The notes beneath the pieces were generated by a model, which saw only the letters and a program-made list of their open reading frames with translations, was not told the origin of the DNA and did not search any database. The translations under genes were made by a program, and so were the position numbers. DNA of 23,690 bases, taken from positions 1 through 23,690 of the IMG/VR virus record IMGVR_UViG_3300020215_000662; one strand, 5' to 3'. How positions within the stretch are numbered: position 1 is the stretch's first letter; every line of letters begins with the position of its first letter. This document shows positions 1 to 22,946 of this stretch, piece after piece. This stretch comes from a virus.

Positions 1-242
1 TCCCCGATGGAGAGCATGCGAATTGAGTCGGCTTTAATGCCTTCGAAGCTAATCTCTTCAACACCTGTATAAGTGGTTGAGAGTCGCCCTTCGGTCATGG
101 GCCATTTCTTAAATGACGTTGCCCATCGGGTCGCGCTCTGAATCCAGTCGTTAATCATGTCATCCGTATAGAATGTCGTTGTTGTGTTGATATTCGCCCG
201 AACGATGACCTGATCTTTAATATCTCCAAAAGTTGTAATCAT
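1..242 (-). CDS. Head-tail adaptor-like protein, partial
   Basis: The gene starts with ATG at 242 and runs off the left edge, so only the N-terminal 80 residues are visible. The protein begins MITTFGDIKDQVIVRANI and contains a helical stretch with FYTDDMINDWIQSATRW followed by KKWP. This pattern, an N-terminal helix then an aspartate-rich INDWI helix, resembles small tailed-phage neck or head-tail adaptor proteins that follow the capsid genes, but I recall the pattern only loosely. Its place as the last visible gene after capsid and propeller-like genes agrees. The start follows the upstream stop with one base between them (TAATATG), suggesting translational coupling. No Shine-Dalgarno sequence is seen. 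The family call is moderate; that it is coding is well supported by the continuous frame and the junction. Confidence 0.5.
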   Translation of the reverse strand, partial: MITTFGDIKDQVIVRANINTTTTFYTDDMINDWIQSATRWATSFKKWPMTEGRLSTTYTGVEEISFEGIKADSIRMLSIG

Positions 243-243
243 A

Positions 244-453
244 TTATGTGAGTGTGACGTACTTCCACGTCGTGTTTTTAGTGTCGTAAAAATAAGCTGC
301 AGTGCTTCCTCCTGCACGGACCAAGACAATCTGTTCAGAGAACTTACGTGGTGCTACTGACGGTGCTTCGGTCAGTGTCTGAATGAATCCCTCAAGGTTA
401 AACACGTGAGAGATTCCCGGGAGGATGTCACTAGGCTTGTTCGACTGGTTCAT
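244..453 (-). CDS. Small hypothetical phage protein
   Basis: A 69-residue protein starting MNQSNKPSDILPGISHVF and ending KNTTWKYVTLT. I chose the ATG at 453 rather than the far upstream start of the open frame (579) because the latter would lie deep inside the upstream gene. With the start at 453 the overlap with that gene is only 23 bases. The stop is followed one base later by the next start. There is no membrane segment and no recognisable domain; the second half has alternating hydrophobic residues (EQIVLVRAGG, STAAYFYD) that suggest beta strands. Position between a structural gene and an adaptor-like gene suggests a minor virion or connector component, which is inference only. Confidence 0.6.
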   Translation of the reverse strand: MNQSNKPSDILPGISHVFNLEGFIQTLTEAPSVAPRKFSEQIVLVRAGGSTAAYFYDTKNTTWKYVTLT

Positions 454-1789
454 AGAAAATTTGTATGAGCTTATACCCCAAATCATCATTTTGAGGAGCA
501 ATGTAGAGTTGGAACATGTCGGTTTGGATGTCGCAGTCAATGACGGTCTTATATGTTGACTGATTGGTATACTGCACATCCTTGATGTCGCTCAGCGATC
601 CGTTGATATCGTTGTAACCTAGGGTGAAACGGCTGGTACCTGCACTATTGGTCTCATCGTGAAAAATTTTGATACGACGAATGATGACCTCACCTCCAAA
701 GGTATAGCGGTTGCTATAAAAATCACCGATGATGCCTGCATTGTCGTAATCTATTTCATAGAGGTCACCCCCACCTGCGCCGTCACTAAAGGCAACCAGT
801 AACTTGTTATCTCCTTTGTAGTGAATGTTGTTGATATTATTCGTGGCGCTCCCATAGAGTTTCCAGAACGTATTCCCTGCTCCCAAATCTCCGTAGGCCA
901 CCACCTTCTTGCCGTCACGGAAAATGAGAATGTCCTCAATGTTGCTGATGTTGTGTGAGTACGTCGTGGTTGAGGTCTCGAATCGATAGAGCGGCTGCAG
1001 ACCGTTACCATCGTAGTAGCCGAAGTTGGAACCGTAGGTTACAAAGATCGTGCCACCTACGACACGGCTTCCCTCAACTTGAGCCTCGAGCTGAACTTCA
1101 CGCTCCCAATCGCGTAGCACCGGGTTGCAGTAGTACACCTTACCTCCACCACCGAGCGTGTGTGAAAAGTTCTGTTCATTGTCTGAGGTGAATGCAAGGA
1201 GCGTCCGGCCATCCGGCGCTTTTCTGAGTGAGGTGACAGCAATGCGGCTGTCAGGAAGGGTGAATGCGATTCCACTTGATGAACCGTTCCAGTAGTAGAT
1301 GACGTTCTTATCTGCAATGAATAGCTCGTCCTCAATTGCTTCCATTGGGTGACGGTAGCCTGCTGTTAATCCCGACCACCAGTTTTCAGTCATGGAACTC
1401 ATTTGGTCATTGAGCTGTGCAACAGCAGTCTGCGAGGTGGCATAAATTTGGCTCTTGAAGTTAATGAGCTCTGAGGTGCCGAGCTGATAGGTATTTGCTC
1501 CTGTCTGTCGCTTTGTGAGCGTGGTACCGCTATAGGTATAAAAATTCGCCTCGTCGTCAACGTGGAGCGAGTCATTGCCCGATGCGCGGGGATCAAACGT
1601 GGATGCGACAATGTTTCCTGTCAGTGTCGAGGAGCCTACCTCACTTCCTGATTCACGAAAGTAGAACATGCCGCGCGTCTTCGTAAGATTGAGTCCGTTA
1701 CTTTTGGGAGAAAATCCCCGATCAGATACCAGATCAGAGGTGCTCTCCCCAGCTATGAAATTTTTGGCTCCAATCTCGATGACGGGCAT
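431..1789 (-). CDS. Putative beta-propeller phage structural protein
   Basis: A 452-residue protein with little helix and many short strands. From about residue 70 onward, segments of roughly 40-50 residues alternate hydrophobic strands with polar turns (for example NFYTYSGTTLTKRQ, KVIYYWNGSSSGIAF-like, GGKVYYCNPVLRDWERE, IFVTYGSNFGYYDGNGL, NTFWKLYGSATNN, GGGDLYEIDYDNAG). This rhythm is typical of beta-propeller blades, and the last third (RFTLGYND to LIQIFYEP) looks like a separate beta domain. Beta-propeller or tail-hub proteins are common among short-tailed phage virion genes after the capsid gene. The ATG at 1789 lies two bases after the upstream stop (TAA CT ATG). No catalytic motif is seen. 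The specific role (tail hub, receptor binding) is not determined. Confidence 0.55.
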   Translation of the reverse strand: MPVIEIGAKNFIAGESTSDLVSDRGFSPKSNGLNLTKTRGMFYFRESGSEVGSSTLTGNIVASTFDPRASGNDSLHVDDEANFYTYSGTTLTKRQTGANTYQLGTSELINFKSQIYATSQTAVAQLNDQMSSMTENWWSGLTAGYRHPMEAIEDELFIADKNVIYYWNGSSSGIAFTLPDSRIAVTSLRKAPDGRTLLAFTSDNEQNFSHTLGGGGKVYYCNPVLRDWEREVQLEAQVEGSRVVGGTIFVTYGSNFGYYDGNGLQPLYRFETSTTTYSHNISNIEDILIFRDGKKVVAYGDLGAGNTFWKLYGSATNNINNIHYKGDNKLLVAFSDGAGGGDLYEIDYDNAGIIGDFYSNRYTFGGEVIIRRIKIFHDETNSAGTSRFTLGYNDINGSLSDIKDVQYTNQSTYKTVIDCDIQTDMFQLYIAPQNDDLGYKLIQIFYEPVEQA

Positions 1790-1791
1790 AG

Positions 1792-2580
1792 TTAGTAATC
1801 AAACTTATCCAAATCAACTTTGAAATATTTACCCCTGAAAAAGTACTTGTCTGCTTTCGAAAGCTTGACCTTATTCCAATCGACCTCTCTGCATAGCTTG
1901 AGAAAATTGTCTCGAAATGCAGGATCGCTCAGTACCACCATAAGCACACGCCGGAGCAAGCGAATGCGCTCCTTCATATCGCCAATTACCTCTGCATGCT
2001 CGAGCATTGTGAGCGCGTACTCAAACTGCGTAATCGGATTGCCGAACAGACGCATCCACCCATTCGGATTAAAGTAGGTGACTAGCCACTGCACTCTGAA
2101 GCGGTACGAATCATCTTCTTGAAGAATAAAGCAGATGAGGTCACGGAGCTTGAGCGAGTTGTTTCCGGGAGCAACCTTTGTCCAAGCGCGGTGAATCTCC
2201 TTGACTGCAGGTACCATCCGCTCAAGGGGGACCATATCGTAGCGGCTCTGCTCTAAGAGCTCGAAGATTCGCGGCAGTGCTTTTTCCTTGATGTGCTCAA
2301 TGATGACAGGAGTGCGTACACCTGCCTCGAGCGAAGCCCAGCTGTCATTGAAGATTTGGTTTTTCACCTCGTGCTTCAATTTTGAGAGCTTGCCATACAA
2401 GAGGTGACCGCGTGGGAATCCCGGGAACGGGTACTTCTCGCCATCCATATGCATGACAATGACCCCGTCTTTATCCTTAGTAACCTTTGCCTCGACTTTG
2501 TCTTTTGACTTCCAGTACTGCACCATCTCCATATCTGCAGGTGACTTTTTCAGTATTTTGAAGAACCATTTGGTAATCAT
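1792..2580 (-). CDS. Hypothetical helical phage protein, downstream of capsid gene
   Basis: A 262-residue, highly charged protein (begins MITKWFFKILKKSPADMEMV) with no recognised family. The first 60 residues contain a small beta-like region (KVTKDKDGVIVMHMDGEKYPF). The remainder looks alpha-helical with regular hydrophobic spacing, and there is a lysine-rich C-terminus (KVKLSKADKYFFRGKYF). It has no signal peptide and no convincing membrane segment. It is the first gene after the major capsid gene, separated by an unusually structured 86-base intergenic region, and its ATG at 2580 lacks a Shine-Dalgarno sequence. By position it could be a head-completion or connector protein, but the sequence itself does not show it. 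Confidence 0.6.
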   Translation of the reverse strand: MITKWFFKILKKSPADMEMVQYWKSKDKVEAKVTKDKDGVIVMHMDGEKYPFPGFPRGHLLYGKLSKLKHEVKNQIFNDSWASLEAGVRTPVIIEHIKEKALPRIFELLEQSRYDMVPLERMVPAVKEIHRAWTKVAPGNNSLKLRDLICFILQEDDSYRFRVQWLVTYFNPNGWMRLFGNPITQFEYALTMLEHAEVIGDMKERIRLLRRVLMVVLSDPAFRDNFLKLCREVDWNKVKLSKADKYFFRGKYFKVDLDKFDY

Positions 2581-2589
2581 TTATTTCAG

Positions 2590-2656
2590 GAATAGCTCAT
2601 TTCCTGACGTGGTGGGGAATGCTCCGTCAGGTACACCCCCCACAAACGAGCTATTC
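2590..2656 (-). promoter_or_regulatory. Structured RNA element between capsid gene and next gene
   Basis: In the minus-strand transcript a perfect 9-bp outer stem (GAATAGCTC with GAGCTATTC, 2648-2656 and 2590-2598) encloses two further perfect stems. One is GTGGGG with CCCCAC (2638-2643 and 2612-2617), the other CCTGACG with CGTCAGG (2625-2631 and 2603-2609). The two inner stems interleave, so they can form either a pseudoknot or two alternative hairpins. No U-run follows, so it is not a standard intrinsic terminator. It begins 10 bases after the capsid stop codon and ends 9 bases before the next ATG. Possible roles are capsid mRNA 3' stabilisation, processing, or control of the downstream start. 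Confidence 0.6.
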
Positions 2657-2666
2657 TAATTAGTTA

Positions 2667-4001
2667 TTAGAACGAGCCGAAGAGCACAGCACCATACTTG
2701 CGGCGGTAACGAGGTACTTTCGCTCCGAAGAGGAAGAGACCCTGATACTTCTTCGCAAACTGGTTTTCTGCGTCAACAACACGTGACTCACTCCACTTGT
2801 CCGCATAGGTGATGAAACCAATGTGGTTAGCCGAGAGAATGTAGCCTGTTGAACCTGCAGTGAGGGACGTATCCGAACCCACACCTGAAGCAGTCGACAA
2901 TCCGGCGCGTGATGAAACACGAGCACCTGCTGCCGAGTGGACATCGAAGGCACCTACGCGCATGACACGACCATTGAGGACCGTACCGCTGTAGATTTCT
3001 GCAATACCCGTTGGCTGCATTTCTGACGACTGGCGGAGCTGCGTAACGATCTCCGGAGTAACGGTGAGCTTTCGGCTATCTGCCGGAACCTCTTCCTTGT
3101 CCAGAGCTTCTGCAAGCAGGGTGACCTGATCGTAGATGGTTGAAGCAGATACTGATGTTGCAATAGCTGCCTGAATTTCCCACCCGAGACCTGCCATCGT
3201 CAAGAGCGATGCGTTACCATCTCCATACTTAGGGAAGTTCTTGCCATCGCCGCCGAAGAGACCGCGAAGTGTATGGCCTTCCTCAAAGTCTGAACCGCTC
3301 GTTGCCTCATCCCACTCAGTGAGTGTTGCCACCATTGAGTTTGTGATGCCCGAGATTCGGTACCATGGAGAGACAAACGTTGCTGTTGATCGCAAGCGGA
3401 ATCCCTTATAGAGCATTGATGTTTCAAATGCTGTTGAGTAGGTCTGTCCGTCACGTGGGTTTTCAACGGTTGCAGGGCCTGTGTTGCCATCACCACCGTT
3501 GACAACGTTGGTTGAGAGTGTGACCGTACCACCTGTTGAAGTCGTAACGATCGAAGCCATGGTCTGGCCTGAACCGACAACAACAAGATCAACACCAATC
3601 CAGTTACCCGCCTTTACGTCTTCACCGAACTTGTTCAAAACATACTTATCGATTTCTCGTTCAAGTACCATTGCTGCATCCTTGAGAAGGTTCTCAGGAA
3701 TGTCACCGCCGTAGGTGAACAGATCTTCAAGTCGATCGAGCGAGAAGTTGTAGTACTTCCGCTTTTCAACGACGAGCTGATCTTCCGCATCCACAATGGT
3801 CTCAGAACTCATGTCAGTACCAACTTGGTAGTCTGACAAGAGAATTGAGTTCAAGAATGAGAGAATGTTTACACGATCTCCCGGCTTCTTGATTTCACCC
3901 TCGTAGTCGCGGTTAGCAATGGCGTCGACAACTGCATTCTGATAGGTCTTTTCGAGGACCTTCGATGCAAATTGTTCACCAAAATTTGTAAGCGCAGTCA
4001 T
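2667..4001 (-). CDS. Major capsid protein, HK97-fold type
   Basis: A 444-residue protein directly after a scaffold gene, with the layout of large HK97-fold coat proteins. An N-terminal helix (GEQFASKVLEKTYQNAVVDAI) is followed by a GDRVNIL strand, the YNFSLDRLEDLF and AAMVLEREIDKYVL spine-helix regions, and a variable middle (about residues 150-280). It then has an EEVPADSRKLTVTPEIVTQL segment and a C-terminal strand region (GRVMRVGAFDVHSAAGA, GYILSANHIGFITYADK, FAKKYQGLFLFGAKVPRYR). The latter matches the usual 'valine-tyrosine-strand, helix, final strand' end of P-domains. The threonine/glycine-rich middle insert may be an added surface domain. An AGAGGAG sequence lies about 13 bases upstream of the ATG, longer than ideal spacing. 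The frame ends with TAA followed immediately by a second TAA. Confidence 0.85.
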   Translation of the reverse strand: MTALTNFGEQFASKVLEKTYQNAVVDAIANRDYEGEIKKPGDRVNILSFLNSILLSDYQVGTDMSSETIVDAEDQLVVEKRKYYNFSLDRLEDLFTYGGDIPENLLKDAAMVLEREIDKYVLNKFGEDVKAGNWIGVDLVVVGSGQTMASIVTTSTGGTVTLSTNVVNGGDGNTGPATVENPRDGQTYSTAFETSMLYKGFRLRSTATFVSPWYRISGITNSMVATLTEWDEATSGSDFEEGHTLRGLFGGDGKNFPKYGDGNASLLTMAGLGWEIQAAIATSVSASTIYDQVTLLAEALDKEEVPADSRKLTVTPEIVTQLRQSSEMQPTGIAEIYSGTVLNGRVMRVGAFDVHSAAGARVSSRAGLSTASGVGSDTSLTAGSTGYILSANHIGFITYADKWSESRVVDAENQFAKKYQGLFLFGAKVPRYRRKYGAVLFGSF

Positions 4002-4019
4002 TTTAGGTTAAGCGCTCCT

Positions 4020-4616
4020 CTATGCAATTTTGAGCTGCCCTTTTTTGATCATCTCGCGGTATTTGCGAGGATCATTTTCACGAAGCCGTTTGACTTCGTC
4101 GGCGCTCATACCCGATGGGATCGGGGTTCTATCCCCTCCTGTCGGTCCCTCAAGTCCTTTGCGCTCAGTTTCGAGAAGATCTTTCTCGATCATGAACGCT
4201 TTTGCCGCAGTCATCATATTCATACCCTTGTTTTCGGGAAGCTCTCGGAAAGATTCAAAATCATCCCACGCCTCCTTAATCAACGGGTATTTTTCGATGA
4301 CCTTACTCTTGTAGAGTTCTTTCTGGATTTCAGAGAGAGTCTCTTTCGTCTCAGAAAGTTGGGTCTTGAGTAAACCAACGGTCTCATCATCGTCGAACAT
4401 AGAAGGAACTGTTTCTACTGATAAATTGTCTTCTTCTAACTCTTTATTCCGCTGTTCTGCTTTCTTAGCCCGCTCATAATTTTGAGAGGACTGTGAAGCT
4501 TTGAACTGCAGAGCGTCGTATTCCTCTTTGGTAAGAGTCACGACTTCGGGCGTTTGCGGTAGCTGATCACCGTCAGAAGGATTTTGAGGCTCCTGAACCT
4601 CTAATGGGTTGTCCAT
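4020..4616 (-). CDS. Capsid scaffolding protein
   Basis: A 198-residue protein placed immediately upstream of the major capsid gene. It has an acidic, proline- and glutamine-rich N-terminus (MDNPLEVQEPQNPSDGDQL). A long charged coiled-coil-like centre follows (residues about 30-110, EEYDALQFKASQSSQNYERA and KELEEDNLSVE). A small basic C-terminal helical segment (ADEVKRLRENDPRKYREMI) ends the protein. Acidic coil plus short basic C-terminal helix-turn-helix is the usual scaffolding arrangement, in which the basic end contacts the coat protein. No protease catalytic residues are seen in it. The start ATG at 4616 has no good Shine-Dalgarno; 54 bases separate it from the preceding small gene. The function is inferred from composition and position, both strong. 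Confidence 0.8.
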   Translation of the reverse strand: MDNPLEVQEPQNPSDGDQLPQTPEVVTLTKEEYDALQFKASQSSQNYERAKKAEQRNKELEEDNLSVETVPSMFDDDETVGLLKTQLSETKETLSEIQKELYKSKVIEKYPLIKEAWDDFESFRELPENKGMNMMTAAKAFMIEKDLLETERKGLEGPTGGDRTPIPSGMSADEVKRLRENDPRKYREMIKKGQLKIA

Positions 4617-4670
4617 TTTTTGAGATGGTTACTCTTAATCTGCGTGTAGGATGCGGCAGCCCCCGTGTAC

Positions 4671-4847
4671 TTACTCAGCGCGAGCAATGAGGTTTTCCAA
4701 ATCGCTGATGCTGCGGATGTTCAAACTCTTCAGTGTTTCGTAGAGCGCGAGCAAAGCTTCTTTCTGTGAAATCGGCTTAAGCTCCATGGGTTCGAGAACT
4801 TGTGCGGTTCCCTCAACCTCGTCGACGTTTTTCTTTGTCTTTGCCAT
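4671..4847 (-). CDS. Small hypothetical protein, 58 residues
   Basis: A short gene between the HExxH protein and the scaffold. It starts ATG at 4847 (MAKTKKNVDEVEGTAQVLEP), two bases after the upstream stop in the recurrent TAA-CT-ATG arrangement, and ends LENLIARAE then TAA. The first 20 residues look disordered and charged. The rest forms amphipathic helix (KEALLALYETLKSLNIRSIS). Dense packing between two coding genes, a sensible composition and the conserved junction style support that it is real. No family is recognised. It could be a minor scaffold partner or a small regulator of assembly, but there is no direct evidence. Confidence 0.6.
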   Translation of the reverse strand: MAKTKKNVDEVEGTAQVLEPMELKPISQKEALLALYETLKSLNIRSISDLENLIARAE

Positions 4848-4849
4848 AG

Positions 4850-5161
4850 TTATTTGATGTTACTGGTAACGACCTTTGACGATTGGGTGTAGGTAATCTC
4901 TCGCTTGGGGACAACATTCTGAGCGCGTTCGTGGGTATCGAGCAGGAGCTTTGCCATTTCGGGGAGTGACATGTTGCCCTCAATCTTGCGTGATTCGCTG
5001 TAGACTTTCGGGTGGTCCATTTCGGGATGTTCCGCGTGCAGGTTTTCGTGAATGATGGTGTTGACCACATCCCCCTTCTTGAGGTTGAGCGTAATCTCTT
5101 CTTTCTGATAATCCGTGCGTCCGAAAACCTTTATACGGTTGTTGATTCTGACGTTGAACAT
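4850..5161 (-). CDS. Small HExxH putative zinc metallopeptidase
   Basis: A 103-residue protein with start ATG at 5161 (MFNVRINNRIKVFGRTDY), immediately after the upstream stop (TAG T ATG). A longer TTG-start version would overlap the previous gene and is less likely. The first 30 residues look like paired beta strands. They lead to a helix carrying HENLH (residues 38-42), which fits the HExxH zinc-binding and catalytic motif. H45, H50, E56 and E62 follow and could supply a third ligand. Minimal metallopeptidase cores of this kind (strand, HExxH helix) occur in phages and small protein families. It lies two genes upstream of the scaffold gene, so a role in head maturation is conceivable, but no activity can be shown from sequence. 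HExxH can arise by chance, though its position after a hydrophobic VVNTII stretch is typical. Confidence 0.6.
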   Translation of the reverse strand: MFNVRINNRIKVFGRTDYQKEEITLNLKKGDVVNTIIHENLHAEHPEMDHPKVYSESRKIEGNMSLPEMAKLLLDTHERAQNVVPKREITYTQSSKVVTSNIK

Positions 5162-5162
5162 A

Positions 5163-5489
5163 CTACTGTTGAGATTCAATTTGTTGGATTAATAACTGCT
5201 CGAGTGCTGCACGTTCTGCTTGGGGTGAATCAATCGCCTGCAAAATGACTTTGTAGACCGTAAAGTAGGGAATGAGCTCTGCTTTTTTGGCTTGATCGAT
5301 GTTAAAGTCTTTCCACCGCGTTTCGATAATAGAGAGCTGACCTTCGAGAAATTGCTTGATATCTGCTACGGTCAGTTCCTTTTTTGAGAGAATCTGCTGG
5401 TATCCGTCAAAGGTTGCCCGCTCCTCTTTTGTAAGTTCTTCGAGGCTTTTAATATTTCGCTTTTCGAGAAGTTTTGTTAACAGGCTCAT
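5163..5489 (-). CDS. Hypothetical helical protein, first gene of capsid module
   Basis: A 108-residue, wholly helical-looking protein (MSLLTKLLEKRNIKSLEEL to IQQIESQQ) with no membrane segment and no recognised domain. Charged and hydrophobic residues alternate as in small helical bundles. It is the first gene behind the promoter and hairpin leader at 5490-5589. Its ATG abuts the T-run that follows the hairpin, so there is no room for a Shine-Dalgarno sequence. It is one base from the HExxH gene. Being the promoter-proximal gene of a module that encodes scaffold and capsid suggests a structural or assembly function, which is inference. Confidence 0.65.
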   Translation of the reverse strand: MSLLTKLLEKRNIKSLEELTKEERATFDGYQQILSKKELTVADIKQFLEGQLSIIETRWKDFNIDQAKKAELIPYFTVYKVILQAIDSPQAERAALEQLLIQQIESQQ

Positions 5490-5533
5490 AAAAAATTGGG
5501 CGAAGTCTTGAGATAAGACTCCGCCCGTTTTTT
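5490..5533 (-). terminator. Hairpin with U-run in capsid-module leader
   Basis: On the minus strand GGGCGGAGTCTT pairs with AAGACTTCGCCC (5515-5526 and 5498-5509) around a 5-base loop. This gives 12 pairs including one G-U, which is an A-C mismatch on the plus strand, so the minus-strand RNA forms the better stem. Six U residues follow after two A (5490-5495) and touch the ATG of the next gene. A run of six T on the plus strand (5528-5533) makes the element potentially bidirectional. Because a good promoter lies just upstream, this may be an attenuator in the leader rather than only a terminator of the preceding operon. Confidence 0.6.
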
Positions 5534-5561
5534 GGGTTGGGAAATATTTAAATGTACTTAA

Positions 5562-5589
5562 ATTATACTAAAAAACGGTGCCTCGTCAA
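5562..5589 (-). promoter_or_regulatory. Sigma70-type promoter of the capsid module
   Basis: The minus strand reads TTGACG (5584-5589), 16 bases, then TATAAT (5562-5567). The -35 box lies directly beside the stop codon of the upstream gene. Transcription would start near 5555 and give a leader of about 65 bases containing the hairpin at 5498-5526 before the ATG at 5489. The -10 is a perfect consensus and the -35 matches five of six. Confidence 0.7.
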
Positions 5590-6273
5590 TTATCCAACAT
5601 TCAAGAGTGAGAGCGTGCTGACGGGACTTATAATGACCCCTCCTGCTCCGGCAGGAGCAAACGAGGCTCCAATGACTGTCCCCTTTTGGTTGCCGACACC
5701 TGTTGCTTCAAAGCCCACCGTGTATAGCCCTGCCGGAGACCTTGCTGCGTTCGTATCGCCGAATGATGTACCGTTTCCTGAAGTTGTGCCGCGTTGCGTG
5801 ATATTCACCGTTCCGGGTGAGCCGTCATTGTCAACTTGGGCAACACAGACAATCCAACAGTTATCTACAACTGTGGTGACGCCCGTGGTGATCTGTGTCT
5901 GAGATGCAGCAGCGTAGGCAGTCTTGTTCGATGCATCGGGAACGCCTGTTTGCTTTGCTCCGGTGTACGATGTACTGAACCCGCCGAGGAACCCCGTCGA
6001 GGTTGAACGGGAAATCACCACATTATTTGCTCCGGTTGAGGGGTTGATGAGGTAATAGAGATAAATATAGTGGTTAGCACTGATACCTCCTGAAATTTTA
6101 TCAATGAGGGTCATTGCAGCACCCCCGTAAGTAATGCCTGTCAGATTGTCGCCATCGTCCATCGTTGCTCCGACAAAGAGAATGGTGTTACTTCCCGTGA
6201 CCGTGTGCGAATACGTGAGCGATGAAGCTCCCGTATTTGAAGACTGAGCAGCGGCATCGAATGCAATTGGCAT
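5590..6273 (-). CDS. Beta-sandwich virion or fibre-associated protein
   Basis: A 227-residue protein, almost all beta by composition, rich in Gly, Ser, Thr and Ala, without a signal peptide. The N-terminus (SSLTYSHTVTGSNTILFVGA) then TGITYGGAAMTLIDK and NNVVISRS resembles secreted or virion beta-sandwich domains with the pattern 'N-T-I-L-F-V-G, G-I-T-Y-G-G, strand, strand'. The end (GTVIGASFAPAGAGGVIIS) closes the sheet. It follows the second repeat-containing fibre-like gene with a two-base gap (TAA GT ATG). A role as a fibre tip, decoration or carbohydrate-contacting domain is plausible from neighbours. No catalytic residues are visible. The promoter of the capsid module begins at its stop codon. 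Confidence 0.6.
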   Translation of the reverse strand: MPIAFDAAAQSSNTGASSLTYSHTVTGSNTILFVGATMDDGDNLTGITYGGAAMTLIDKISGGISANHYIYLYYLINPSTGANNVVISRSTSTGFLGGFSTSYTGAKQTGVPDASNKTAYAAASQTQITTGVTTVVDNCWIVCVAQVDNDGSPGTVNITQRGTTSGNGTSFGDTNAARSPAGLYTVGFEATGVGNQKGTVIGASFAPAGAGGVIISPVSTLSLLNVG

Positions 6274-6275
6274 AC

Positions 6276-7586
6276 TTAGATTTCGCGCGTAAAGAGTCCG
6301 GTAAGTGAGACGGTAGTACCGGTAATGTCCCCCATATCAGCAGTCCAGTTATTCCCGGTGTCGTTCTGTGGATAGGGAAGCGGGAGCGTAAAACCTGCCG
6401 TACCATTAGCCGGAATTTGGAGCGTCGTTGCCACGTTGCCGCCCGTGACCGCGCGAATGTCAACTGATACTGCTGCATCTGAGTTATTCGCACCTACCAC
6501 GGCAATCAAATCGTGCATGTGACCTGCACTGGCCGCTAAGAATGTTGTTTCAGTTCCATTGGTCAGTTGTACGTAAGCGGTTTTTGTGAGGTCGCGCACC
6601 TGAATGGGCCGGATGAGCATGCGCCCCAAATCGTCAAAAATTGCGTCGGCTCGGTCGGCGTTATCCAAGGATGTACTTGGGAGTGTCTGTCGTACCTTAC
6701 CGCCGATTTTCACGGGATTTCCGGTGTCGGTGACATCATTAGCAACATTTCCGCTCGTTTCCGTAGTCCATCCCGATCCTGATACCTGCATAACAGGCAC
6801 GGCCGATGCACGGAGTTCTGAATCAGTGAGTCCGGAACCCCCTGTTTCCACTGAGACTTTGATCCGGTTATCTGCATTGAAGACACTTGACGCTGAAGTC
6901 GAGCCAAAAATATCAATCACTGCAACACTCCAGTTTGCCCCCGATACTTGCGAGACCGGAACTGCGGAAGCGCGCAATTCCCCATCAGTCAATCCCCCTG
7001 TCGCAGAACTCGACATTGTAACCTTCAGAGCCCCCGTGTCTTGATCAATGAGCGATACCGAAGAAGCTCTAATGTCCTTGATGGTAAAGAAGTCTGCCTT
7101 CCCGCCTCCGGCACTACTGACACTCTGATTGAAGCTCACCGGATTGCCGTGCATGTCGCGCAGTTGGACCGGAAGTGGATTGTTGAGATCAACCCCCATC
7201 AAGCTAACCCACCCGCGAATCTGCATTTCCTCAGGCATAATCACCTCCGGTACTTTAATGGGCGGTACATTGACCATCACGCGCGGCTGCACCTTGCTCA
7301 TCGTCTGCTCAATGATACTGATGATGGGTGCAGTATCGACATCTTTAATGCCCCGATTTGCAACCTCAGCGGAGAGTTGTTGCATGAGTTCGCGCATTTC
7401 TGCTTTGCTCAGATTCGATGATCGTGCAATTTCCATCAAGAAGGGCGTCAACATGGTTGCCAGATTCTGTCCCACTGTATTGAGCAGTCGGTGCGAAGCG
7501 GCCTCATTGCCTGCAGCTGCTCGCGCTGTTGCAAGTGAGCTCTCAAGAATCCCTTTAAACTGTTTGATGATGTCGTTGTTGTTCAT
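6276..7586 (-). CDS. Repeat-containing fibre-like protein, short paralogue
   Basis: A 436-residue paralogue of the protein at 8570-10534. Residues 1-100 are helical. Then come two VP repeats (VNVPPIKVPEVIMPEEM) and the shared block RGWVSLMGVDLNNPLPVQLRD (about 124-144). The segment GGGKADFFTIKDIRASSVS follows. Two copies of the 54-residue repeat begin LTDxELRASAVPV at 199 and 253. The C-terminal beta domain is shared too (TNGTETTFLAA, GNNWTADMGDITGTTVSLTG). From the KADFF block to the first repeat about 57 of 62 residues match the longer paralogue. The LTDxELRA-VPVS repeat is known from many tailed-phage virion proteins. The ATG at 7586 comes four bases after the upstream stop. Fibre or decoration protein is an inference from repeats and position. 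Confidence 0.7.
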   Translation of the reverse strand: MNNNDIIKQFKGILESSLATARAAAGNEAASHRLLNTVGQNLATMLTPFLMEIARSSNLSKAEMRELMQQLSAEVANRGIKDVDTAPIISIIEQTMSKVQPRVMVNVPPIKVPEVIMPEEMQIRGWVSLMGVDLNNPLPVQLRDMHGNPVSFNQSVSSAGGGKADFFTIKDIRASSVSLIDQDTGALKVTMSSSATGGLTDGELRASAVPVSQVSGANWSVAVIDIFGSTSASSVFNADNRIKVSVETGGSGLTDSELRASAVPVMQVSGSGWTTETSGNVANDVTDTGNPVKIGGKVRQTLPSTSLDNADRADAIFDDLGRMLIRPIQVRDLTKTAYVQLTNGTETTFLAASAGHMHDLIAVVGANNSDAAVSVDIRAVTGGNVATTLQIPANGTAGFTLPLPYPQNDTGNNWTADMGDITGTTVSLTGLFTREI

Positions 7587-7590
7587 AGTG

Positions 7591-8265
7591 TTAACCTACT
7601 TTCATAAGGAGTAAGCGTGGTTTGGTAGTAACTACAGCTGCAGCTGAATTAAAGTCATTGGCTTCAAGAACATCGAAAAAAATAGAGTCAGTATCTGCAG
7701 AACCGTTAAAGTAATAGGCTCCGACTAAATGATTGGTATTATTAAGTGTCGCGTCGGTCGTATCGATATCCCATGTCGACGGCTCAGAACCTGACGCCGC
7801 CCAGAACCGCCCTCTAATCGTTGAGCCGCTTGCATAGGCCTTAATATAGTAATGCGTTGCAGCACTGTATGAAACAGTCGCTGTTACTTTTACAGTTTCA
7901 GTCGTTCCAGAGAGATAGCTGAATCGAAAACTGTTTCCGGCGCGAAGAGCCATGAAATATCCTTCATTGGTTGTAGCATCCTTACCCCGGAAAACCGGAC
8001 CTCCACGCAGTGTTGCATCGATAAAATAAACAGTTGCTTTAACCTCGTATTCTCCTGTGCCGGGGCTCGTGACAGTATCAATTGCAAACCAGTGGCTTGA
8101 AGTTGGAGCCGTACTCAGCTTAGTGAGCTGAACACATTTTGTCCCCTCAAAAGCATTTGAAGTAGAGATGACCGGGAGGAAGTTTGTGGTATCGTTGCGC
8201 TCCCAACCTGCGGGAGTATTGCCTGTCGTGTCTGAGTTGTAATCGGCGTAATAGACGCGGGTCAT
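7591..8265 (-). CDS. Jelly-roll (lectin-like) virion protein
   Basis: A 224-residue beta-rich protein starting MTRVYYADYNSDTTGNTPAGW. Features such as a threonine/tyrosine-rich N-terminus (FEGTKCVQLTK), paired strands (GEYEVKATVYFIDA, GYFMALRAGNSFRFSYLSG, THYYIKAYASGSTIRGRFW) and a closing SADTDSIFFDVLEAND fit a concanavalin-like jelly roll. This fold is used by phage receptor-binding and carbohydrate-binding modules. The pattern 'strand, GSTIRGRFWAASGSEPSTW, strand' is common in these domains. It starts inside the stop of the upstream gene (TAATG, one base shared), a typical coupled junction, and lies between two paralogous fibre-like genes. Ligand and exact family are not determinable here. 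Confidence 0.6.
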   Translation of the reverse strand: MTRVYYADYNSDTTGNTPAGWERNDTTNFLPVISTSNAFEGTKCVQLTKLSTAPTSSHWFAIDTVTSPGTGEYEVKATVYFIDATLRGGPVFRGKDATTNEGYFMALRAGNSFRFSYLSGTTETVKVTATVSYSAATHYYIKAYASGSTIRGRFWAASGSEPSTWDIDTTDATLNNTNHLVGAYYFNGSADTDSIFFDVLEANDFNSAAAVVTTKPRLLLMKVG

Positions 8266-8567
8266 TATTCGAGGCGATTAAGAATAGAGCGTGCTGCTTG
8301 AGGAATCTTTGAGCTGACATCCTCATCTTTTAATCGATTCAAAGCACGATTCAATGGAATGAGGCCCGCGCCTTGCAGCTCTGCTTCAATTTCGGGTGAT
8401 ACACGAGTTTCGAGAATGACTTTCTGTCCGGGCTTGTTTGCATAGTCTTTAAACGAATGGCGTATACATGCGTAGCCCCGGCCTTCAACTAAGTCCCATC
8501 CCTTAGGCTTGTAGCATACTTCTACCTCATCAAGATACATTTCTGTGAGCCAAAACATCGATTGCAT
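8265..8567 (-). CDS. Hypothetical protein between fibre-like genes
   Basis: A 100-residue protein (MQSMFWLTEMYLDEVEVCYK to AARSILNRLE). The first half suggests a small mixed alpha/beta domain with aromatic residues; the second half has helix with charged residues (EIEAELQGAGLIPLNRALNRL). No known family. It has one of the few Shine-Dalgarno-like sequences in the window (AGGAAG about 7 bases before the ATG), which lies inside the end of the upstream gene. The stop overlaps the next start by one base. Its size and position suggest a fibre assembly accessory or chaperone, but nothing in the residues proves it. Confidence 0.55.
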   Translation of the reverse strand: MQSMFWLTEMYLDEVEVCYKPKGWDLVEGRGYACIRHSFKDYANKPGQKVILETRVSPEIEAELQGAGLIPLNRALNRLKDEDVSSKIPQAARSILNRLE

Positions 8568-8569
8568 AG

Positions 8570-10534
8570 CTAGACTTCCTTAGTGAATAGTGCAGAGACA
8601 TTGACTGTTGTTCCCGTAATATCCGGCATATCAATAGTCCAGTTATTATTTGCGTTGCCCTGAGGCCACGGTACGGAGAACGCAATACCCCCCGGAGAGT
8701 TAGCAGGAACTTCAATCGTGAATTCGACATTGCCTGCTGTAACTGATCGGACATCGAGGGTAACTGCAACGCTTGAATTGTTTGAAGCCATGATGGAAAT
8801 ACAGTCATGGAATACACCTGTACCGCCTGCAGCAAGAAGTGTTGTTTCGGTTCCGTTGGTGAGTGCAACAAAGGCTGTTGCAATGAGGCCGCGAGCCTGT
8901 ACGGGTCGGACCAACTGCCTTCCGAGGTTGTCAGATGAAAAGCTCACAGTATCGCCTCCTGAAACAGCAGAAGGGTTTGCAGTGCGGGCAATGCCACCCA
9001 TTTTGACCGGAGCAGAGTTGTCGTCGACAGCATCAGATGCAGTGGTTCCCGTTACAACAGTTGAGGTGATTGAACCGGAAACCGTCACTGTTGGCGTTCC
9101 CTGAATTGTTGCAGCAGTTGATACAGCACTGTCACCAGCAATGACAACGCGAATGGTCCTTGAGTCAGTGTCGCCCTGATTTGCTGCAACACCTGCAACA
9201 CCTGAAATGATGTTTACTTTTGCACGGTCTGATTCGTCCCAATCATCGAGTACTGAAAGTGAGGCGGTCTGAGTTTGCTGTTCAGCGAGTGTTGCTGCGC
9301 CAGACGGCAAGGCAGAAGAAACAACATTCGTGCTCCACGTTGATCCGCTGACCTGCTCAACGGGCACCGAAGTAGCTCTCAGTTCAGAATCAGTTAAGCC
9401 GCTGCTCCCCGTAGGTAACTCTACTTTCAATCGTCCATCGGGGTTAACGATATCAGTTGCAGCTGAGTTAAAGATTTCTTTGACGTAGACTGTCCATGCT
9501 GCGCCCGAGACTTGAGACACCGGAACAGACGCTGCACGCAGCTCAGAATCGGTAAGACTACTCGAGCCCGTTGGTAGTTCAACCTTAAGTCGCCCATCGG
9601 GGTTGATCACATTGGTTCCCGTTGAGCCAAAGACATCTGTAACATACACGCTCCAATTGGCACCACTCACTTGACTTACCGGGACTGATGATGCTCTCAA
9701 TTCACTATCCGTTAATCCTGAACCTCCGGTTTCAACTGACACCCGCAAGCGGTTATCGGCATTGAAGACGCTCGTTACAGCAGTTGATCCAAAGGCATCT
9801 ACGACATTGACAGAATAGGTTGCTCCGGAGACTTGCGAGACTGGGACTGATGAAGCACGCAGTTCTGCGTCAGTAAGCCCTCCGGTCGCAGAACTCGACA
9901 TGGTGACTTTCAGTGCTCCGGTATCTTGGTCGATGATTGATACTGATGAGGCGCGGATATCCTTGATCGTGAAGAAATCGGCTTTGCCGCCACCTCCCCC
10001 ACCAATAATCTGGGTAAGGTTTTCAAAGAGATTGACGGGATTCCCCTTTGCATCACGCAACTGAACCGGGAGCGGGTTGTTCAAATCAACACCCATGAGT
10101 TGTACCCAACCCCGGATGTTCATCTCTTCGGGCATAACCACATCGGGAATCTTGATCTTCGGTACTTCTATTTTAGGGACTTTAACCGTGACTTCTGCTT
10201 TCGGAACTTTGATCTCCGGGAGCTTAATCTCGGGAACATTGACCGTGACTTTCGGTTCCGGGACATTAATCACCGGAAGTTTGACCTCCGGTACATTGAC
10301 CTCAATGTTGGGCGTCGGAACTTCGATGTTCGGATTAACGCTAATTTGCGCGACCGCATTGAGAAAATCCTCCTTTGAAACTTTTGCGTTGTCAGCTACT
10401 TCATCGAGCACGGGGCGCAGAATTTCGACAATTGCCGGGCCGAGCACTTGGAGCAACTCTTTGGTTGCCTTCTTGTGTGCAATTGCCTCTTCGAGTGCTT
10501 GTTTTGCTTGTTTGAGTACGTTGTTAGGTTCCAT
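8570..10534 (-). CDS. Large repeat-containing fibre-like protein
   Basis: A 654-residue protein. Residues 1-65 are helical. Residues about 68-135 are a tandem short repeat of VP-E-I/V-K type (VNVPEVKLP, VNVPEIKLPEIKVP, VKVPKIEVPKIKIP). About 140-165 is the block shared with the short paralogue (RGWVQLMGVDLNNPLPVQLRD), then a polyglycine linker (178-183) and KADFFTIKDIRASSVSI. Four copies of a 53-54-residue repeat start LTDxELRA at 220, 274, 327 and 380. A low-complexity threonine/serine/valine region and a C-terminal beta domain end in GTTVNVSALFTKEV. It follows the portal gene with one base between (TAG T ATG). Repeated beta motifs plus a helical start fit an elongated fibre, head-fibre or spike subunit. 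Its location between portal and scaffold is not the usual tail-fibre place. Confidence 0.75.
   Translation of the reverse strand: MEPNNVLKQAKQALEEAIAHKKATKELLQVLGPAIVEILRPVLDEVADNAKVSKEDFLNAVAQISVNPNIEVPTPNIEVNVPEVKLPVINVPEPKVTVNVPEIKLPEIKVPKAEVTVKVPKIEVPKIKIPDVVMPEEMNIRGWVQLMGVDLNNPLPVQLRDAKGNPVNLFENLTQIIGGGGGGKADFFTIKDIRASSVSIIDQDTGALKVTMSSSATGGLTDAELRASSVPVSQVSGATYSVNVVDAFGSTAVTSVFNADNRLRVSVETGGSGLTDSELRASSVPVSQVSGANWSVYVTDVFGSTGTNVINPDGRLKVELPTGSSSLTDSELRAASVPVSQVSGAAWTVYVKEIFNSAATDIVNPDGRLKVELPTGSSGLTDSELRATSVPVEQVSGSTWSTNVVSSALPSGAATLAEQQTQTASLSVLDDWDESDRAKVNIISGVAGVAANQGDTDSRTIRVVIAGDSAVSTAATIQGTPTVTVSGSITSTVVTGTTASDAVDDNSAPVKMGGIARTANPSAVSGGDTVSFSSDNLGRQLVRPVQARGLIATAFVALTNGTETTLLAAGGTGVFHDCISIMASNNSSVAVTLDVRSVTAGNVEFTIEVPANSPGGIAFSVPWPQGNANNNWTIDMPDITGTTVNVSALFTKEV
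9320..9880 (-). repeat. Four tandem 53-54-residue LTDxELRA repeats
   Basis: Within the large fibre-like protein, copies begin LTDAELRASSVPVSQVSGA, LTDSELRASSVPVSQVSGA, LTDSELRAASVPVSQVSGA and LTDSELRATSVPVEQVSGS. Spacing is 54, 53 and 53 residues, so units are about 160 bases. Copies two and three also share the intervening NPDGRLKVELPTGSS segment. The short paralogue carries two more copies. Confidence 0.85.
10130..10339 (-). repeat. Tandem short VPEI/VPKI protein repeat
   Basis: Residues about 66-135 of the large fibre-like protein are built of approximately 5-10-residue units with Val-Pro followed by Glu or Lys and an aliphatic residue. The units extend without insertions until MPEEMNIRGW. 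The charge changes along the array from glutamate-rich to lysine-rich. Such regular valine-proline strands are expected to form an elongated beta structure. The short paralogue keeps only about two units. Confidence 0.75.
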
Positions 10535-10535
10535 A

Positions 10536-12257
10536 CTACATTGTTTGGAGCTGCATTAAATTCTGCTGGATATCGTTCATGATCGGGCCATTCTCTCCGC
10601 CCTGTTCCATGGGATTCATGAGCGCCATTTCTTCAATACGCCTCTGCTCATTTTCTACCTCTTTTAGCTCTTCGGGAGTCAGATCAAGTAACTCGAGGTT
10701 TCGCTTGAGTGAAATCTTCTTGAGCGCCATGTTGTTAGGATTCTGCGAGAGGACAAACTGCCACTTTTGGAGAGATTTGACCTCGCTCTGCTCCTGTTCA
10801 GAGGTTGACTGAACAATCGGTTCGTACCCCACATCAGACTTCCAGTCCGAAGCGTATACCCGCTGAGTGTACATCTTGCCTGAGCGCGAGGTTTTATAGA
10901 GGCTCACGAGCTTGGGTGCATTGGCGTGAATGAGCTTATCCCACTTGCAGGCGAGCTCGTAGCGTGCCAGTCGGTAAAACTTCTGCATGCCAATCGTACG
11001 TTCCATCGCCTTACCCACCAAGACTTGTACTTCACCGAGTGTTTGTGTTCCCTCTTCACCCTCACCCTTTTCAATGGCCGTAGCACCGGATGCACGTTCA
11101 ACAATTTGCGTGAGTGCAGAAATGGCTTGGAGTGTATCATCAAGCCCCGAAATCTCGACAGGCTTAATTACCTTGTTAATGTCATCACCCGGAGGTGCAG
11201 GGAGCATGACCCCCGGCCCCGGCGTATAGGTCTGTGGCGTGTAGCCCTGCTGGGGCAAGAACCAGTGCATCTGAAAGTTCTTGAGTGTTCGGTTCTCAAT
11301 CAACTGACTAAACCATACGTTAATGACCTTATTTGGTGTTCGAACCAAATCATCAATCGAATCTGGGTAGATGTCGATATTCTCTGGGTCTTCGCTCCAC
11401 ACGATGAATGGCCAGAAGTCGACCCCAATGAGCTTCTTGAGGGGTTCATTCATGAGCTCTATGTGATCTTCAGCGTATACGACAACACGGCGTTCCCAAT
11501 CCTGCTTTTTGGTATTCCAGACATTGGTGTAGTGTTCAGTGAGATTGATGATCCGATCTCCTCCTGCAAAGAGGGCAAAGTCGCTGTGCTCAACACCCAT
11601 GCTCTTGAGACGCTCAATTTTCTCTTCCCAGTGCTTCTTATTGTCTTGACTCTGTGTCATACCCGGCGCTGAATCAACCCAGAGCTTGAGTTTATTTTTC
11701 CCCTCTTCGGTATATCGATCATCAGCCAGAATCTCACGCACTGATCGGAAGATGTTCTGACGCACAATAAAGCGTGCTGTCTCGATGTCGGCAGGATTCA
11801 TGAGCGGATCAAAGACGATATCGTAGACATCGAGGACATGTACGGAAATTCCCCTTTTGCCAATGTTGAGCATCATCGTGCTCAGTCCATAGCGGAGAAC
11901 ATTTTTCTTATCGAGAATATCAAGCAACTCGAGCTTGTTCTCCTTCATGGTCATATCCCAGAGCTCCTGATAGAGAATCTCCTTATCCTCATTTCCGCCC
12001 TTTTCTTTCCACTTTACGTTAGGAGCATCATCAATTTTCGAGAGTAACGTTTTCTCCGTCTCTTTCATGAGCGGAATATTGACCGCTTGTCGTTGCGTCA
12101 AACGGTTGGTTTTGACTTTGTTGCGGCACAGCTCATAGTTATCATCCCAGTCAGCGTGTTTGCGCTGCTGTAATTCGTTGGCGGCTTTCTTTTCTGCTTT
12201 CAGTTTTTCTAAAAGCGTGCTCGTTTCCCATGTTCCGTTTATGACTTCGTTAGACAT
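10536..12257 (-). CDS. Portal protein
   Basis: A 573-residue protein downstream of the terminase module and upstream of scaffold and capsid, as expected for the portal. It has a long helical N-terminus (LLEKLKAEKKAANELQQRK). Then come a segment describing coordinated helices and strands (LDVYDIVFDPLMNPADIETARFIV), a central beta/alpha wing, and NIYPDSIDDLVRTPNKVIN-like stem residues. A conserved-looking loop follows (RASGATAIEKGEGEEGTQTLGEVQVLVGKA), with helices ending in an acidic and glutamine-rich tail. 'FDP' plus 'PN.VINVWFSQLIENRTL' and 'GATA..G..E...QTLGEVQ' fit portals of P22-like or related families. The ATG at 12257 directly follows a strong hairpin and has no Shine-Dalgarno sequence. 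The family call is high because of motif plus position; the precise portal subfamily is not fixed. Confidence 0.82.
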   Translation of the reverse strand: MSNEVINGTWETSTLLEKLKAEKKAANELQQRKHADWDDNYELCRNKVKTNRLTQRQAVNIPLMKETEKTLLSKIDDAPNVKWKEKGGNEDKEILYQELWDMTMKENKLELLDILDKKNVLRYGLSTMMLNIGKRGISVHVLDVYDIVFDPLMNPADIETARFIVRQNIFRSVREILADDRYTEEGKNKLKLWVDSAPGMTQSQDNKKHWEEKIERLKSMGVEHSDFALFAGGDRIINLTEHYTNVWNTKKQDWERRVVVYAEDHIELMNEPLKKLIGVDFWPFIVWSEDPENIDIYPDSIDDLVRTPNKVINVWFSQLIENRTLKNFQMHWFLPQQGYTPQTYTPGPGVMLPAPPGDDINKVIKPVEISGLDDTLQAISALTQIVERASGATAIEKGEGEEGTQTLGEVQVLVGKAMERTIGMQKFYRLARYELACKWDKLIHANAPKLVSLYKTSRSGKMYTQRVYASDWKSDVGYEPIVQSTSEQEQSEVKSLQKWQFVLSQNPNNMALKKISLKRNLELLDLTPEELKEVENEQRRIEEMALMNPMEQGGENGPIMNDIQQNLMQLQTM

Positions 12258-12264
12258 ATGAGAA

Positions 12265-12294
12265 GGGCGGAACTTCTGTAGTGAAGTTCCGCCC
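12265..12294 (-). promoter_or_regulatory. Perfect hairpin in portal mRNA leader
   Basis: GGGCGGAACTTC (12283-12294 on the minus strand) pairs perfectly with GAAGTTCCGCCC (12265-12276) around a 6-base loop. The stem ends 7 bases before the portal ATG and has no clear U-run after it. It closely resembles the leader hairpin of the capsid module at 5498-5526 (same CGGGCGGA left arm start and CGCCC end), although loops and flanks differ. A stabiliser or attenuator is possible. Confidence 0.65.
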
Positions 12295-12326
12295 GGTGTA
12301 AGGGGTTAGGATATTGAATTACTCTC

Positions 12327-12355
12327 ATTATAGCTGAACTTTTTGTGAGGGTCAA
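12327..12355 (-). promoter_or_regulatory. Near-consensus sigma70-type promoter of the portal operon
   Basis: The minus strand reads TTGACC (12350-12355), exactly 17 bases, then TATAAT (12327-12332). Transcription should begin near 12320 and give a leader of about 63 bases that contains the hairpin. The -35 box overlaps the stop codon and last residues of the microprotein gene at 12352-12462. This is the best promoter match in the window. Confidence 0.78.
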
Positions 12356-12462
12356 TCATCTAAAAGACTCATCCACCAATCATGCCCTGTGTACATAATC
12401 ACATAGCCGAGTAGATAAATGGGAGCAAGGACTATGAAGAGTGTGAGTTTAAATGCTCTCAT
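12352..12462 (-). CDS. 36-residue single-span membrane microprotein
   Basis: The reading frame ATG at 12462 to TGA at 12352 encodes a 36-residue protein, MRAFKLTLFIVLAPIYLLGY then VIMYTGHDWWMSLLDD. Residues about 4-24 form one hydrophobic segment after two positive residues, so a single membrane span with the short acidic, tryptophan-containing tail outside is likely. The start codon overlaps the stop of the upstream gene by the ATGA arrangement, strong evidence for translation. The end lies in the -35 box of the portal promoter. Size and topology fit small phage membrane proteins such as holin partners or superinfection proteins, but this is not shown. No family is recognised. Confidence 0.6.
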   Translation of the reverse strand: MRAFKLTLFIVLAPIYLLGYVIMYTGHDWWMSLLDD

Positions 12463-12794
12463 GAATGGTGGTGGCGGTTATGGTGGTCGATGAGTTCATT
12501 CATTTTTTCAGCAATTGACCAAGATCTAGTTCCATCTATACGTTCTATCGCCCCCTCAGCCGCGTCGGGGGTGGTTGTTGTGGCTTGATGCTGTTCATTA
12601 CACTGCCGGCAGCATCTCAAACCTACTATTGCATCAATGAAATGGCAGCCACAGTAGCAGTGTTGATACTCCTCCCCCGCTTCCACGGGCTCTGCCTCCA
12701 GTTCGATGAATGCTGGGAGCGTATATGTTTCAATCCATCGATCCTTGTATGTACATAGTTTTTCCAGCTCTTCTCTACTTACTCGTACCTTCAT
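12459..12794 (-). CDS. Small cysteine-rich (zinc-ribbon-like) protein
   Basis: A 111-residue protein starting MKVRVSREELEKLCTYKDRW. The middle holds HCYCGCHFIDAIVGLRCCRQC, which has paired cysteine knuckles and flanking histidines suited to bind zinc. An acidic/threonine stretch (residues about 69-82) and a C-terminal helix ending in HHNRHHHS follow. The ATG at 12794 is 76 bases behind the acetyltransferase stop. The stop is shared with the next microprotein start. It may bind nucleic acid or regulate, as small phage zinc proteins do, but the target is unknown. The histidine-rich tail is natural in this sequence. Confidence 0.6.
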   Translation of the reverse strand: MKVRVSREELEKLCTYKDRWIETYTLPAFIELEAEPVEAGEEYQHCYCGCHFIDAIVGLRCCRQCNEQHQATTTTPDAAEGAIERIDGTRSWSIAEKMNELIDHHNRHHHS

Positions 12795-12870
12795 AGTGTG
12801 TGGTGGTTAGCTTGTAGTGGTTTGATGGTAAATGAATGCCGAGTACAACGCCCCCGGCAATGGCGTAATC

Positions 12871-13389
12871 TTACTGTGTTTCGAAATGTCGTAGCTCCTC
12901 GCTCCACTCATGCTCGGTCGGGTAGTTAATTCTTCGAGCAGGATTCCCCACCCACGTTTCGCCGTCAGGAACGCACTTGGTAACGACAGACCCCGCGCCA
13001 ATCAGTGCATTTTTTCCAATGGTGATACCCGGAAGAATGACGCAGCCTGCACCAATGCGTGCGCCCTCGCGGACACGTGTTGTGAGCCAATTACGGTTAC
13101 CCGGAATGAGCTGCTTATCATTGGTGAAGGTTACCCGAGGTCCGATGAACACGTTGTCGTAAATCATCACCTTAGGTGGGATGAAGCTGAATGCTTGGAT
13201 GCTGACATTGTTGCCAATGATCACCCCATCCCCAATCCAGACGTGCGAGTGAATGGTGCAGTTTCTGCCGATCGAGCACGTGCCGATATTGGAGAGCTGA
13301 GGATACCAGAGCATGGTTCCATGCCCGATGCGATAGCGCACCTCGTCACCGCGCAGGTACTTGAGGAACGATTTTAGCCACGCTTTCAT
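12871..13389 (-). CDS. Left-handed beta-helix N-acetyltransferase (WbpD/WlbB-like)
   Basis: A 172-residue protein with repeated hexapeptides of the left-handed beta-helix (IGTCSIGRNCTIHSHVWIG, GVIIGNNVSIQ, RIGAGCVILPGITIGKNALI). It also has the family end GAGSVVTKCVPDGETWVGNPARRI. The internal VFIGPRVTFTND motif with a following extended loop matches UDP-sugar N-acetyltransferases of the WbpD/WlbB group, which transfer acetyl from acetyl-CoA onto amino sugars. H48 lies in the usual region of the active-site histidine, but other histidines are possible. The start at 13389 is preferred to the TTG at 13407 because AGAGGAG lies six bases upstream, the strongest ribosome site in the window. It sits between terminase and portal genes, about 2.5 kb from the other sugar genes. 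Confidence 0.78.
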   Translation of the reverse strand: MKAWLKSFLKYLRGDEVRYRIGHGTMLWYPQLSNIGTCSIGRNCTIHSHVWIGDGVIIGNNVSIQAFSFIPPKVMIYDNVFIGPRVTFTNDKQLIPGNRNWLTTRVREGARIGAGCVILPGITIGKNALIGAGSVVTKCVPDGETWVGNPARRINYPTEHEWSEELRHFETQ

Positions 13390-13395
13390 GACACA

Positions 13396-13402
13396 CTCCT
13401 CT
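13396..13402 (-). promoter_or_regulatory. Strong ribosome-binding site of the acetyltransferase
   Basis: AGAGGAG on the minus strand is spaced six bases before the ATG at 13389 and decides that start. Nearly all other genes here lack such a site, so this gene may have been acquired with its own initiation signal or be translated independently of neighbours. Confidence 0.7.
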
Positions 13403-13411
13403 TGCAAAGAA

Positions 13412-13618
13412 CTACGTCGACTTTCGACGTTTAAAGGCCCAATACTCTAACTGAACGCCCTGAAAGGTACTATCAGCATCAAAGTGTATAATTGCCTTGC
13501 CGTTTTTCAGGTCAAACGCCCCGGACCCGATGAGGGCAACAATGATCTCTTGGTACTTCAAGATTTGATCTTGGTCGCGTACCGGGTCTTTATCGGGGAG
13601 TTTAACTTGAATAATCAT
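13412..13618 (-). CDS. Small hypothetical protein after terminase
   Basis: A 68-residue protein starting MIIQVKLPDKDPVRDQDQIL and ending YWAFKRRKST. The pattern suggests a small alpha/beta fold: an N-terminal strand, a helix around residues 17-30, then strands KAIIHFDADSTFQGVQLEYW. It has no membrane part. It follows the zinc-finger gene with the TAG-GT-ATG junction and is tightly placed before the acetyltransferase. No family was recognised and no function can be assigned; it may be a minor packaging or regulatory protein. Confidence 0.55.
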   Translation of the reverse strand: MIIQVKLPDKDPVRDQDQILKYQEIIVALIGSGAFDLKNGKAIIHFDADSTFQGVQLEYWAFKRRKST

Positions 13619-13620
13619 AC

Positions 13621-19816: not shown

Positions 19817-19817
19817 A

Positions 19818-20234: not shown

Positions 20235-20235
20235 A

Positions 20236-22932: not shown

Positions 22933-22946
22933 AGATTTAAAATTAC

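Follow-up and report, generated by a model that had tools for sequence, protein, structure and literature searches.

A 23-24-nt RNA element overlapping terminator-like hairpins before portal and capsid-side operons of uncultured phages

Late control in phages is usually credited to DNA-binding activators or to antiterminators that ride on the polymerase, and the put RNA of HK022 and the nut sites of lambda are RNA elements that lie early in the phage transcript and overcome terminators. To our knowledge, late-gene timing in phages of uncultured bacteria is largely unknown. In the BglG/SacY/LicT systems, the RAT is a hairpin of 23-30 nt that overlaps a terminator and excludes it when stabilised by the protein (PMC4347634), and RNA-binding proteins also choose between terminator and antiterminator in cspA-type cold-shock antitermination and in the PyrR and TRAP attenuators (PMC4347634).

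We analysed 23,690 bases of an uncultured phage, deposited as a virus record in IMG/VR (the whole stretch is called the window here), in which two leaders share a small hairpin element comparable to these systems. As with a RAT, the hairpin overlaps an intrinsic terminator at its 5' arm and the two are mutually exclusive; by eye, the bgl RATs of E. coli can also be drawn with two short helices flanking an asymmetric internal loop of 3 nt against 1 nt, very like the WAA/C loop of the element. However, that loop is UUA/G by inspection in the bgl RATs, model R2 of the element, run without filters and with E values up to 10 allowed, passed over both bgl RATs in E. coli K-12, and RATs serve sugar-use operons whereas the element precedes phage structural operons and in places a start-codon sequestor. 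The gene for the BglG-type CAT RNA-binding domain (CAT_RBD, PF03123) was found in none of 18 phage records (controls positive). The choice between terminator and antiterminator recalls the cspA-type, PyrR and TRAP systems, but the same 18 records had no cold-shock domain, and the element starts at most about 15 nt from the predicted transcript start, leaving no space for an anti-antiterminator. Unlike put and nut sites, it shares bases with the terminator hairpin and shuts it out, and in some copies a start codon would be the target instead. With riboswitches it has in common one conserved sensing domain, variable platforms and alternative helices, but it is much smaller, has no known ligand and is absent from Rfam 15, where permissive thresholds gave no match and no cis-regulatory family came near its gathering score. 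A search of open-licence papers found nothing on such an element. We regard it as a new family of RNA elements with good support, RAT-like in its probable working but not a RAT.

The two leaders and their hairpins

All window features described here lie on the minus strand. PHROGs assigned the major capsid gene to positions 2667-4001. The 573-aa product of the gene at 10536..12257 is the portal protein, as judged from fold comparison; the match of its model to the SU10 portal (Foldseek E 7.6e-12; predicted structure, mean pLDDT 58.4) supports this assignment. The sequence-only reading had placed the leaders before the capsid and portal operons, which holds for the operons themselves, except that the capsid-side leader is directly 5' of a conserved 108-aa gene of unassigned function (5163..5489); this gene opens the operon, and the capsid gene follows about 1.5 kb on. 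The window also contains, 5' of the packaging genes, a long sugar/glycan cassette (15844-23423) that almost every relative conserves, with transketolase-like, DegT aminotransferase, nucleotide-sugar epimerase, N-acetyl-sugar amidotransferase-like, class-I GATase, and glycosyltransferase- and methyltransferase-like genes. Upstream of the portal gene is a gene of about 70 aa (13412-13618) that is conserved in 12 of the 18 genomes analysed, and the kin of its protein end in a YWPWRRK-like motif.

Each leader begins with a sigma-70-like promoter matching the consensus at 11 of 12 positions, TTGACG-16-TATAAT on the capsid side (5562..5589) and TTGACC-17-TATAAT on the portal side (12327..12355); these are the best 2 of 16 matches in window positions 1-14000. 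Both sit on the stop of the preceding gene, as had been noted earlier, with a TAA (5592-5590) immediately 5' of the capsid-side promoter and the TGA of a 36-aa ORF immediately 5' of the portal promoter. This ORF (12352-12462) encodes a hydrophobic single-span peptide. The lack of a Shine-Dalgarno sequence, which had been remarked on as well, is true of the leaders but does not distinguish them, since such sequences are scarce throughout these phages (an SD-like motif precedes 7.9% of 317 other conserved genes versus 1.6% of leaders).

The sequence-only reading further described AATAT and AACCC motifs common to both leaders, a 12-bp hairpin in each (here P2), the capsid-side one with a single G-U pair, and a U-run touching the capsid-side ATG, all of which are present. 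On the capsid side, P2 (5498..5526) joins the arms GGGCGGAGUCUU/AAGACUUCGCCC in 12 bp, one of them the G-U pair, with a folding energy of -21.2 kcal/mol (z -7.7); TTTTTT (5490..5495) comes next, giving the GC-rich stem and U-run of an intrinsic terminator. The portal P2 (12265..12294), with the arms GGGCGGAACUUC/GAAGUUCCGCCC in 12 bp (-24.1 kcal/mol, z -9.2), is followed by UUCUCAU and the ATG at 12257. None of 200 shuffles was as stable as either hairpin. Terminator prediction made no call for the portal P2, whose sole U tract is the weak UUCUCAU, so that blocking there may be translational.

Overlooked in that first reading was that AACCC and CGGGCGGA are opposite arms of one conserved small hairpin. 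The element so formed, 23-24 nt in length, consists of a 3-bp helix (P0), an internal loop in which WAA (5' strand) faces C (3' strand), a second helix of 3-4 bp (P1) and an A-rich loop. The capsid-side copy (5520..5542; identified with models R1 and R2 and by covariation) has P0 UCC/GGA (5542-5540 with 5522-5520), P1 CCC/GGG (5536-5534 with 5526-5524), the internal loop CAA (5539-5537) / C (5523) and the apical loop AAAAAAC, and it scores 30.1 bits with R1 (E 3.9e-6) and 27.6 bits with R2 (E 2.7e-5). The portal copy (12288..12311; models R1 and R2) has the same helices, P0 UCC/GGA (12311-12309 with 12290-12288) and P1 CCC/GGG (12305-12303 with 12294-12292), around the internal loop UAA (12308-12306) / C (12291) and the apical loop CUUACACC, with scores of 26.8 bits (R1, E 3.1e-5) and 29.5 bits (R2, E 8.3e-6). 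No third element scored above 12 bits in the window, and weak matches near 15010 and 9984 fall in coding sequence. The predicted energies of the element are -4.6 kcal/mol on the capsid side and -5.9 kcal/mol on the portal side, where it is predicted to fold on its own, versus -21.2 and -24.1 kcal/mol for the respective P2. Its 3' arm GGGCGGA doubles as the 5' arm of P2 (5526-5520 on the capsid side), which makes the two hairpins mutually exclusive.

Conservation and covariation among relatives

Relatives were collected by capsid and portal protein similarity, and their portal leaders were inspected without a motif filter. Nearly all leaders of portal homologues (60-74% protein identity) have the module, laid out as TTGACA/TATAAT, a few bases, approximately AUAUCCUAACC-(U)AACAAA-GGCGG, a hairpin, U-rich sequence and ATG. 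Model R1 found 46 sites in 53 loci, almost always on the sense strand, and 20 of 22 relative phage records have one to three copies of the element. The 12-bp hairpin had itself been considered as the conserved unit and was rejected, given that the terminator stem varies freely and only its 5' base and the upstream arm are constant.

Pattern scans of all viral contigs returned mostly chance matches, yet revealed a second portal family that looks unrelated to the first (L176, L164 and L204-L216), with the element at the same place and in new pair combinations. The portals of this second family and of TM7 phage DolZOral124_53_65 are distant relatives (27%), a kinship that hints at Candidate Phyla Radiation hosts. 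Model R2 had no match in this TM7 phage or in a spring-water phage, 493 kb of other phage DNA gave it none at E<0.2, and no portal relative was found among the isolated phages of INPHARED. In this analysis the element was met in phage DNA only, three weak chromosomal matches in the Elusimicrobia MAG that contains relative L114 being coding-sequence-like on inspection. Two phage contigs of the group are binned in MAGs, L114 with Elusimicrobia and L115 with an archaeon, and both are probably mis-binned because other genomes sampled from either phylum lacked the portal. A further copy (L248:13392-13420, minus strand, in G011) has a terminator, lies downstream of an 1860-aa ORF and is followed by small ORFs.

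Conservation and covariation in relatives were what the sequence-only reading had staked itself on, and both were found. In 35 leaders, aligned by sequence, double changes occur in all 7 pairs, with 48 cells compared to 17.9 ± 3.6 after shuffling (0 of 500 shuffles as high) and at most 12 in slid controls. For 63 leaders from the two portal families, all 7 pairs again covary, with 89 double-change cells compared to 28.5 ± 6.9 (0 of 500), and the slid controls did not exceed 20; cells here count sequences rather than independent events, and part of the copies came from a scan requiring P1, a bias absent from the homology-chosen portal leaders and the slid controls. Paired cells make up 87.8% of P0 and 88.4% of P1, and the outermost P0 pair occurs as C-G, U-A, G-C, A-U and U-G. 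The unpaired positions are the best conserved (A11 in 62 of 63 leaders, C28 in 58, U9 and A10 in 49 each), a pattern typical of a binding site.

These results bear on whether the leaders could be passive devices, with P2 stabilising the 5' end or acting as insulator or terminator, and with terminator composition (A-tract, GGCGG) giving rise to the upstream complementarity without any switching. P2 is the stablest feature and comes right after the stop of the preceding gene, and purine/pyrimidine bias does raise chance pairing; however, the P0/P1 covariation is far above column composition and slid controls and includes U-A, G-C and A-U replacements, the unpaired UAA/C is conserved, and copies without P2 keep the element. 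Such a passive role is already disfavoured and appears highly improbable.

Of the 63 elements, 35 are preceded by a promoter that agrees with the consensus at 10 or more of 12 positions (background 1.1%), and between its -10 box and P0 lie 7-23 nt. From this spacing we infer that the element is the first stretch transcribed, a position that would leave no space for the upstream leader ORF of ribosome-mediated attenuation (a leader peptide) or for the specifier domain of a T-box. In one relative (G016), a tRNA-Met gene (L157:113-189) ends 2 nt 5' of the portal element with no promoter between them.

Two expression platforms and a candidate switch

At least 2 of the 3 P0' bases pair downstream in a competing fold in 63 of 67 leaders, and in 56 of 67 at least 5 of the nine bases after that fold are U, as in a terminator. 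Other copies have no terminator and involve the start codon. In the third copies of L006 and L016, the 5' side of the element pairs with the start codon (UCAUACC...GGUAUGA and CAUAUCAC...GUGAUAUG); the gene concerned has too few relatives for comparison. The portal leader of G012 has CCAUUGG...CCAAUGG across the start codon, those of L100 and L147 have the start codon in or at the competing stem, and in the capsid-side leader of G010 the stem abuts the AUG. Some of these translational folds are weak relative to shuffles (z -0.3 for L147 and -1.6 for G012), and the element scores low in G012 (17.3 bits) and G010 (14.2 bits), the location of these last two copies at the expected genes supporting their inclusion. 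One element set against two kinds of blocking structure is, on the predicted folds, the hallmark of a switch.

Processive antitermination of the put or nut type would have the element recruit RNA polymerase or an N-like protein, so that P2 and later terminators are ignored. The element's place at the 5' end of late transcripts with a terminator-like hairpin directly after it agrees with this, and P1 with a 5-nt A-rich loop is superficially boxB-like. Overlap with a terminator would nevertheless be needless in such a system, yet the 3' arm overlaps P2 in the 63 leaders above; the start-codon-capturing copies without a terminator would be left unaccounted for; and there is no lone boxB-type stem, the internal loop being conserved instead. 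We therefore consider it very unlikely. Of the earlier suggestion of a shared control element, what stands is the repetition before both operons and the idea of attenuation relieved by an antiterminator, which fits exclusive, covarying helices. Its other proposals, a put-like RNA and a plain 5' stabiliser, gain no support, as they explain neither the P0/P1 covariation over the terminator arm nor the start-codon platforms.

One copy may be wired in the opposite direction. In G021 (L246:1806-1834), an element outside the training set (AUCU-UAA-CC-aagacaaAU-GG-C-AGAU, 30.0 bits) includes the AUG of a transketolase-like gene in its 3' arm, and a near-identical copy is found in G019 (L144; G019:2168-2196). 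With the AUG inside the element, control there would have the opposite sign, as would suit a feedback site at which a structural or other phage protein represses by holding the element as the OFF state. In every terminator and sequestor copy, though, formation of the element breaks the blocking hairpin and so predicts ON, making general repression through the element extremely doubtful.

We consider it probable, with some reserve, that the leaders are antiterminator/anti-sequestor switches in which a putative trans-acting factor stabilises the element and turns portal and capsid expression ON. The first 25-40 nt or so of each late mRNA would fold into the P0 - WAA/C - P1 - A-rich loop hairpin, and because element and P2 share an arm, only one could be complete at a time. 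P2 alone would block expression, mostly as an intrinsic terminator and in some relatives by pairing with or abutting the start codon. By default the operon would be off, for with a weak element and a strong P2 the latter should prevail unless something stabilises the element. The putative factor, for which an RNA-binding protein that recognises the UAA/C loop is the likeliest candidate, would do so, P2 could not close, and the portal or capsid genes would be expressed. What the sequences show is conservation, covariation, the overlap with P2, two kinds of platform and a place at the 5' end behind a promoter-like site; transcription start, termination, the ON direction (drawn from the structure) and the factor, both that there is one and of what kind, are inferences.

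Possible partners and significance

Clustering of 17 phage records together with the window found no regulator-like gene common to all carriers, only structural and sugar-cassette genes being common to them. The two portal families likewise had no regulatory gene in common. The early genes of two phages comprised ordinary replication genes and one helix-turn-helix protein. Without a common regulator gene, the partner could be a host factor or a metabolite. The same two-state RNA might accordingly be a small-molecule riboswitch, with the element as a minimal aptamer for a host metabolite and no protein involved, and its compactness, conserved unpaired bases and interchangeable expression platforms, along with a signal that could be host-derived, would agree with this. 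On the other hand, the genes controlled are structural (portal, capsid) rather than metabolic, the element has only 6-7 bp, and it matches no Rfam riboswitch, so that we regard a riboswitch as unlikely. More broadly, and only tentatively, the element may represent an undescribed RNA switch family in unrelated phage lineages of uncultured hosts that senses, through one minimal hairpin, a factor or metabolite supplied by the host, controls the genes for virion assembly accordingly, and has been repeatedly rewired between transcriptional and translational control.

For the antiterminator/anti-sequestor switch that we favour, the same tiny device would stand at the head of late operons in two phage groups or more, and since dozens of relatives and a second group have it before these same genes, it probably sets the timing of particle building. 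Few candidate sensing elements are as small as its 23-24 nt, and it comes with dozens of natural variants whose stems covary, and the many variants on both terminator and start-codon platforms make its rules testable in an ordinary reporter. The partner, once found, would add either to the RNA-binding antiterminators or to the riboswitch ligands now known.
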